DNA from: Helicobacteraceae bacterium | GTDB lineage: Bacteria > Campylobacterota > Campylobacteria > Campylobacterales > Sulfurimonadaceae | Length of the DNA: 64,000 bases | Assembly (NCBI GenBank): GCA_027038835.1 | Contig: JALWGC010000019.1 | Coordinates: forward strand, 1 to 64,000 | Reading direction: 5' to 3' | Shown here: one piece after another, positions 61,116 to 62,322 of the stretch | How positions within the stretch are numbered: the first letter of the stretch is position 1 | How the letters are laid out: each line of letters opens with the position of its first letter | The notes under the pieces: generated by a model | What the model saw: only the letters and a program-made list of their open reading frames with translations | Databases searched by the model: none | What the model was told of the DNA's origin: nothing | Program-made: the position numbers and the translations under genes

Positions 61116-61778
61116 TTATTTATAATGCTTTTCGAGTGCAGCTCTGTTTAGAATCGTAACATTTCTGTTCTCGATCTCTATGCAGCCCTCTTTTTGCAGT
61201 TTTTTCACTATACGAGAAAGTGTCTCGGGTTGAATATGCAATCTGTAAGCGATATCGTTTTTTTTCATCTTGTTGAAATCTTCGAGATTGTTACACAACA
61301 TATGTGCCACTTTCGCCGTACCGTCATATATAAGGTCGCGGTTGATGATGTACTGAAACTGTTCCAAAAGATTGTAGGTTTCATGGAGTACACCGGTAAG
61401 GATTTCATACCTGCCTATGAACATATGTTTGAATTTTTCGATATCTATTAGCAAAATTTGCGCTTCGCTCAGCGTTTCCACACTGTAAAAAGTGGAACAA
61501 ACAAACTCATGTTTGTAAGTTTTCTTTACAAGATAGATAAAAGCATCCTCTTTTACATCGTTTAGAAATATCTCGTTATCGAACTTGTCTATTTTATAAA
61601 GTTTCACTCTCCCCTCTGCAAGATAATAGATATGTGAAAGGCTGTCGTTTTCGTAAAATACGATACTTCCGGGGGAGTAATGCTCCATTTTCGATATAGC
61701 GGCAAGCTTGTCGATATCTTCGTCACTCAACGAAGAAAAAAGTTCTATATTTCTCAAAACCGCTTTGATATTTTTCAT
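61116..61778 (-). CDS. Crp/Fnr-family transcriptional regulator, likely nap activator
   Basis: This 220-residue protein has a cyclic-nucleotide-binding-like sensor (about 10-125), a long dimer helix and a winged HTH (NDIAYRLHIQPETLSRIVKKLQ). It lacks the N-terminal cysteine cluster of FNR, so it probably senses another signal, such as nitric oxide or nitrosative stress as in NssR or Dnr proteins. The start is ATG 61778 (GGTGG upstream); the frame opens at 61811. It is encoded just upstream of napA, and matching boxes precede both genes, which suggests activation of nap and self-regulation. Confidence 0.85.
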   Translation of the reverse strand: MKNIKAVLRNIELFSSLSDEDIDKLAAISKMEHYSPGSIVFYENDSLSHIYYLAEGRVKLYKIDKFDNEIFLNDVKEDAFIYLVKKTYKHEFVCSTFYSVETLSEAQILLIDIEKFKHMFIGRYEILTGVLHETYNLLEQFQYIINRDLIYDGTAKVAHMLCNNLEDFNKMKKNDIAYRLHIQPETLSRIVKKLQKEGCIEIENRNVTILNRAALEKHYK

Positions 61779-61818
61779 GTATTTACCACCGTTATATTTT
61801 TTATAATTCAATCATTCA

Positions 61819-61857
61819 ATTATACCATTCCACCCCCTTATTCTTGACTTAAATCAA
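61819..61857 (-). promoter_or_regulatory. Promoter of the Crp/Fnr regulator with a matching box
   Basis: TTGATTTAAGTCAA (61857-61844, minus strand) differs from the napA box only in its 4-base spacer. TATAAT (61824-61819) places the box centre near -39 to -41. A TATAATT/AATTATA inverted repeat (61802-61824) overlaps the -10. Confidence 0.6.
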
Positions 61858-61951: not shown

Positions 61952-62214
61952 ATACCAAACCCAACTAAAAGCTGGGAAATTAAATAAAAGAGAGGCTATT
62001 AGATGCAAGACAGACTATCGCAGATGCTACTGGTAGCCTCAAGATAGTCTAACGCAGCAGATGATAGCTTATCTTTTACCCGATGGGCGAACATATGGAA
62101 GCATATTACTGCGTTGAAAGCTCTTGAAGCTACCTGTAGCTCCTGCGAACTTTCGCCTTGTACTATACTTCCATATGTTCGTTTACTTTCACAGTTTTTA
62201 GTTGGATTTGGTAT
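61952..62214. repeat. 263 bp element with 23 bp terminal inverted repeats and internal hairpins
   Basis: The left end ATACCAAACCCAACTAAAAGCTG (61952-61974, key part CCAACTAAAA) and the inverted right end (62192-62214) match at 21 of 23 bases. TA flanks the CCAAA ends on both sides. Inside lie AGACTATC/GATAGTCT (62012-62019, 62043-62050) enclosing GCTAC/GTAGC, then a perfect 14 bp pair CGAACATATGGAAG/CTTCCATATGTTCG (62088-62101, 62168-62181) enclosing AGCTAC/GTAGCT (62128-62141). No open frame of note is present. It looks like a non-autonomous element or a structured RNA. It fills most of the 544-base gap between the regulator and the porin; the rest (62215-62322) is the porin leader. Confidence 0.6.
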
Positions 62215-62322
62215 AATATAATTTTTCGCTATTTATAGAGTGATTGCAATCTTTGGAAAACATATCGAGGTATGCTTTCCAGAGATTGTTATCTCTAACA
62301 ACTTCACTTCAAAAGGAAATAT

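Follow-up and report, generated by a model that had tools for sequence, protein, structure and literature searches.

The window analysed here, a stretch of 64,000 nucleotides from a Helicobacteraceae bacterium (genome of 1.97 Mb in 19 contigs), contains a porin gene and, divergent to it, a gene for a regulator of the Crp/Fnr family (61116-61811, minus strand). A Crp/Fnr-type box (TTGACTTAAATCAA, 61844-61857) sits between the two genes, and a similar box is present at the same place in the same-genus genome G002 (L352). Upstream of the porin gene, the original prediction had placed a stretch of 263 bp with terminal repeats matching in 21 of 23 bases that is not explained by any gene. This description holds: 21 of the outer 23 positions pair, as do 29 of 33 (88%) over the longer repeat, TA steps stand beside both ends, and no ORF of at least 60 aa is found inside. 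Since the target duplication is TAA, the borders of the element proper were refined to 261 bp (Table 1). A second sequence of the same intergenic region, TTATACCATTCC at 61819-61829, resembles a lone ATACC-type element end and may be a remnant or due to chance.

Table 1. Coordinates of the element upstream of the porin gene and of its parts.
Feature	Position	Strand	Basis or remark
Target-site duplication, left copy, TAA	61950-61952		identical to 62214-62216
Target-site duplication, right copy, TAA	62214-62216		
Mobile element proper (TACCAAAC...GATTTGGTA), 261 bp	61953-62213		copies, target duplication, empty site in G002
Left terminal inverted repeat = 5' side of outer stem	61952-61984		33 nt, 88% complementary to 62182-62214
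Right terminal inverted repeat = 3' side of outer stem	62182-62214		
Arm 1, compound hairpin with internal loops, AAAAGAGAGGCTATTAG stem, GCTACTGGTAGC tip	61985-62079 (approximate)		folds; helices 6-8 of alignment A1
Central mini-hairpin between the arms, CCGATGGG region	62080-62087 (approximate)		folds; helix 5 of alignment A1
Arm 2, 22-nt stem with internal loops; minus strand = CAAGGCGAAAGTTCGCAGGAGCTACAGGTAGCTTCAAGAGCTTTCAACGCAG	62088-62181		internal repeat, helices 2-4, motif conservation
Arm-2 match in the own genome	C19:62123-62160	-	
Extended -10-like TGGTATAAT	62209-62217	+	element end (TTTGGTA) + TAA duplication + one flanking T

Copies and target sites of the element

Further copies of the element were found both in its own genome and in related genomes, where the original prediction had proposed to look for them. 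The own genome contains one copy with 90% identity over 270 bp (C8) and two with 72-73% (C12 and C6), which are full-length with their own terminal repeats and have outer stems that differ in sequence yet still pair; fragments are present on C3, C14 and C4. Read by eye, the copies stand before recR-, peroxiredoxin- and proC-like gene starts. Matches to the element occur in 11 of 60 relatives, and a scan of genome contigs with the arm motif yielded 94 stretches, titled Sulfurimonas, Helicobacteraceae, Campylobacterales, Arcobacter or Nitratifractor, whereas the arm pattern was absent from the viral contigs. From Sulfurimonas and its neighbours 81 elements were extracted, most of them 261-274 bp in length. 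The copy in the window belongs to the subfamily with ATACC ends, of which 26 sequences were aligned (A1). Two smaller forms carry such ends as well: a 56-bp hairpin consisting of two ATACC terminal repeats alone, an internal-deletion form (G000:C5:3990-4045, L013; similar in G061 and G075), and elements of 220 bp with a different, G+C-rich interior (G039:C1, e.g., L293:2165-2384), so that other cores share these ends. A search of the open literature, which leaves out most subscription journals, yielded no paper on repeats of this kind in Sulfurimonas, and this small transposon family of Sulfurimonas and related bacteria is apparently undescribed.

A TWA target duplication of 3 bp borders the members of the ATACC subfamily. 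Its left and right copies agree in the middle base in 23 of 26 cases, with A and T used about equally; at the window locus TAA flanks both sides. The target duplications of the other subfamilies are TA-like in appearance, which was not significant in the test. In G002 (L352) the region of the Fnr/Crp-type box and the porin leader are present and the element is missing, according to an alignment made by eye over diverged flanks, which does not prove the exact junction. Moreover, elements lie within each other at L298:2050-2590 (G039). There, a AAGGGCACCTCT end adjoins an ATACC element, which has another two-armed element inside. Mobility is thus read from sequence, namely from the empty site and the nesting. 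Taken with its small size, the lack of a gene and the 33-nt terminal repeats at 88%, the 261-bp element upstream of the porin gene is, in the best explanation and with high probability, a non-autonomous transposon (MITE). This was one of the two natures originally proposed for it, and it is well supported by copies at unrelated sites, target duplications, the empty orthologous site, nested insertions and siblings with IS5-type ends.

The conserved fold and its core

The folded 263-base strand has a minimum free energy of -105 (plus) or -109.5 kcal/mol (minus), compared to -59 ± 5 kcal/mol for dinucleotide shuffles (z = -9.2 and -10.6, respectively; none of 200 shuffles as good). The predicted perfect 14-bp internal pair is indeed present (62088-62101/62168-62181), within a 22-nt pair at 91%. 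Three nested internal hairpins had been proposed too; the strong folding is confirmed, but the arrangement is better described as a Y, made of an outer stem, a central mini-hairpin and two compound arms. Nearly all extracted elements shown adopt the same Y fold. An Rfam search of the element region returned no family, its sole match being spurious and outside the element (E 0.2).

The covariance check that had been suggested for the hairpins came out clearly. The consensus fold of the 26 aligned ATACC elements has 94 pairs, 65 of which show at least one double (compensatory) change. In this fold 96.0% of the cells are paired, versus 77.7% for shuffles and 35-42% for slid partners, and the covariation score is 0.518, versus 0.168 and 0.05-0.09, respectively. 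Double changes affect 25 of the 33 pairs of the outer stem, the sequence of which varies freely beyond TACCA in the ATACC elements. The proposal of a structured element is therefore supported by very strong covariation, and the fold may act either at the RNA or at the DNA level.

Among 78 distinct arm cores from all subfamilies, AAGGC is 94-98% and AACG 89-98% identical, and both are unpaired, while adjacent stem columns with 37-55% identity still pair in 75-98% of the cores. These cores were collected by their tip pattern, so that the invariance of the tip is partly by construction. Since the loops AAGGC and AACG are fixed while the stems vary, we infer that the folded core is under selection, and the fixed internal loops offer a specific starting point in the search for whatever reads the fold. 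It has to be considered, however, that long quasi-palindromes are corrected by template switching. The complementarity could hence be kept by mutational correction alone, which would make the covariation uninformative on a function of the fold, and several outer stems are indeed perfect (33/33 in L039, L143 and L147). Such correction would also erase non-complementary loops, whereas AAGGC and AACG stay unpaired in the 78 cores. We therefore regard this explanation as rather unlikely, although palindrome correction could maintain part of the pairing. It is compatible with the MITE reading and competes only with the role assigned to the core.

Exchangeable ends and the link to IS5

At least six kinds of ends are combined with the same core, namely ATACC, AAGTRCC, AAGTAAG, AGGGCRCC, TTGARCC/TTGAGACC and TTGCCAT. 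For two of them, complete insertion sequences with matching ends were found. The first type of insertion sequence has AAGGGCAYCTCTAAAAAC ends and is represented by L156 (G044; about 1.28 kb with a transposase of 343 aa), and ends of the AAGGGCAYCTCTAAAAAC type also occur in L155 (G043) and L309 (G071). The transposases of L155 and L156 belong to the IS5 family (NF033581, transpos_IS5_4, E about 1e-78). The second type, with ATTGAACCCTCTGAACAA ends (L325, L341 and L390 in G161, more than 10 copies, and L327 in G187), has a transposase that is 34-36% identical to that of the first. BLAST comparisons of the small elements with these insertion sequences gave matches (E down to 3e-6) that are confined to the outer 16-26 bp of the two ends, without internal similarity. 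The small elements therefore did not arise from them by simple internal deletion. G071 contains both such an insertion sequence and 15 matching ends. In G064, 77 AAGGGCACC-type ends are spread over many contigs, and a decayed IS5 transposase with three stops is present (C63:14480-14788).

A transposase with the same ends, as had been sought for the element, hence exists for two sibling subfamilies, but none was found for the ATACC ends of the window copy. An end-pattern search covering its own genome and 150 relatives revealed no insertion sequence with ATACC ends, and neither did inspection around the ends in G061, G039, G005, G023, G075 and G054; searches via PF01609, PF13586 and PF13359 led only to small elements, fragments and chance hits. 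Insertion sequences are often lost from draft assemblies, and for this reason their absence is weak evidence. A transposase for the ATACC subfamily can thus only be assumed. The equality of ends expected of an IS5-mobilised element is seen in the AGGGCRCC and TTGAACCC subfamilies and not in the window copy, and the ATACC ends are highly variable except for TACCA, which sets them apart from the usual IS5-type inverted repeat.

Bacterial MITEs are usually taken as deletion derivatives of one insertion sequence. One core behind at least six end sets, two of which match distinct IS5-type transposons, is unexpected for such a simple derivative, and the exchangeable ends make end-swapping testable. 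We regard the two-armed MITEs, whose ends are exchangeable and in part of IS5 type, as a new family, a variant within the known MITE kind. The constancy of the core motifs across changing ends, and the freedom of the outer stem beyond TACCA, would also suit a folded single strand that is moved or copied by a structure-reading enzyme (REP/RAYT-like or integron-like), with the terminal repeats being only the base of the fold, and the tip GCAGGAGCTAC/GTAGCTTC is superficially like that of tagged REP hairpins. The fixed TWA duplications and the IS5-type ends of the siblings point instead to a double-strand DDE mechanism, the GTAG tag of REP elements is absent, and no tyrosine transposase was noticed beside the elements in an unsystematic look, so that we judge a single-strand route improbable. 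A likeness to integron attC sites was dropped as there are no matching core boxes.

Genomic context, proposed mechanism and related systems

Of the elements with enough flank, 53 of 61 do not overlap an ORF of at least 90 aa. Divergent genes surround 28 of the 54 classified elements and 25% of the other gaps at the same loci, convergent genes 3 of 54 and 15%, counts that come from crude ORF calling and a small baseline. Such a bias is consistent with A+T-rich promoter regions as the sites of insertion, or with loss elsewhere. That the element is not mobile but a structured RNA belonging to the porin gene, cis-regulatory or independent (a leader or sRNA), appears very improbable, as copies flanked by target duplications stand before unrelated genes, the orthologous porin gene of G002 lacks the element and no Rfam family matches, in spite of the covarying fold, the position between a Crp/Fnr-family gene and the porin gene and the finding that, among 59 classified contexts, 56 have the family member located upstream of one or more genes.

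The right end of the MITE had also been predicted to supply the -10 box of the porin gene. An extended -10-like box, TGGTATAAT, is in fact formed across the element end and the duplication, with a -35-like TTCACA 18 nt upstream (62188-62193), inside the terminal repeat, and 11 of 12 consensus positions match. However, a promoter consensus scan gave 2 sites versus 2.1 in shuffles, and the flanking DNA beside the element end contains TATAAT (62217-62222), so that one -10 was present before the insertion. Judged by these motifs, the prediction is supported only in part, and the element may add or alter a porin promoter. Through this family, more generally, Sulfurimonas genes come to have outward -10-like ends beside them.

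As a mechanism, we propose that a DDE transposase provided in trans, of IS5 type by analogy, would cut at the TACC/GGTA ends; the element would then enter TWA sites, frequently those of A+T-rich promoter regions. The core would be kept across changes of the ends because the folded strand is recognised or useful, possibly in the form of a transcript or of DNA that is extruded or single-stranded. At the window locus, the insertion would have widened the distance between the porin gene and the upstream region with the Fnr/Crp box by about 260 bp, and an outward extended -10-like end would have come to lie before the gene. A further and tentative idea, which we hold to be possible but doubtful, is that the folded core, rather than the ends, persists as a structured parasite, which changes its terminal repeats again and again to suit the resident IS5-type transposase and has a common ancestry with ERIC. 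ERIC would then represent a branch with one arm, in enterobacteria, of an old superfamily.

Several known systems resemble the family in part. IS5-family insertion sequences of the NF033581 type and their relatives have an outer 18-24 bp that is nearly identical at both ends to the AGGGCRCC and TTGAACCC subfamilies, but the small elements have neither a transposase nor internal sequence of the insertion sequences, and the ATACC ends match none found. The RUP of Streptococcus pneumoniae is likewise a small element without genes, the terminal repeats of which match those of a full insertion sequence with TA target (IS630-Spn1; PMC2229807); here, in contrast, IS5-family ends occur on siblings, several end types are combined with one core and the core fold is conserved. 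The CIR elements of Caulobacter and Brucella share the two hairpin arms with a linker, but are without the 5'-3' outer stem and with a GANTC motif (PMC2229807). REP and REPIN sequences with their RAYT are also short, mostly intergenic, repeated hairpins, of 20-40 bp with a GTAG tag and a tyrosine transposase (PMC3733652). The family differs from them in having GCAG at the position of the tag in 78 of 78 cores, which is partly by construction as the collection pattern contains GCAG. REP/RAYT was set aside for the missing tag and for the terminal repeats and target duplications that are present.

A suggestive likeness exists to ERIC (IRU, RU-1), known from Enterobacteriaceae and Vibrionaceae (PMC10969869, PMC2229807), which is intergenic, has a TA target, TATAC-type ends and a long self-complementary fold (z -8.3), and contains AAGGCG, the CAGGAGCT hairpin and AACGCAG in what looks like the order of the arm motifs. 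In E. coli (L154) it reads GCAGG-AAGGCGA...CCCCAGGAGCTTAC-GTAAG...AACGCAG with TATAC ends. Scored with matrices derived from Sulfurimonas arms only, ERIC reaches 24.8, a value attained by 3 of 4000 dinucleotide shuffles; as ERIC was chosen after the likeness had been seen, the evidence is weaker than this figure suggests. The ERIC-like pattern in viral contigs is accounted for by ERIC copies and chance matches in coding sequence. On the other hand, ERIC has one arm in 127 bp, a form that the window element with its two arms and about 261 bp does not share, its terminal repeats comprise 7 bp versus about 33 bp, its target is TA versus a 3-bp TWA duplication, and the spacing of the motifs differs. 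By analogy it is likely that the element works like ERIC, as a structured, intergenic, TA-targeting unit, and a common ancestry of the two is possible. If the likeness holds, the family gives a handle on what ERIC is and how ERIC moves.
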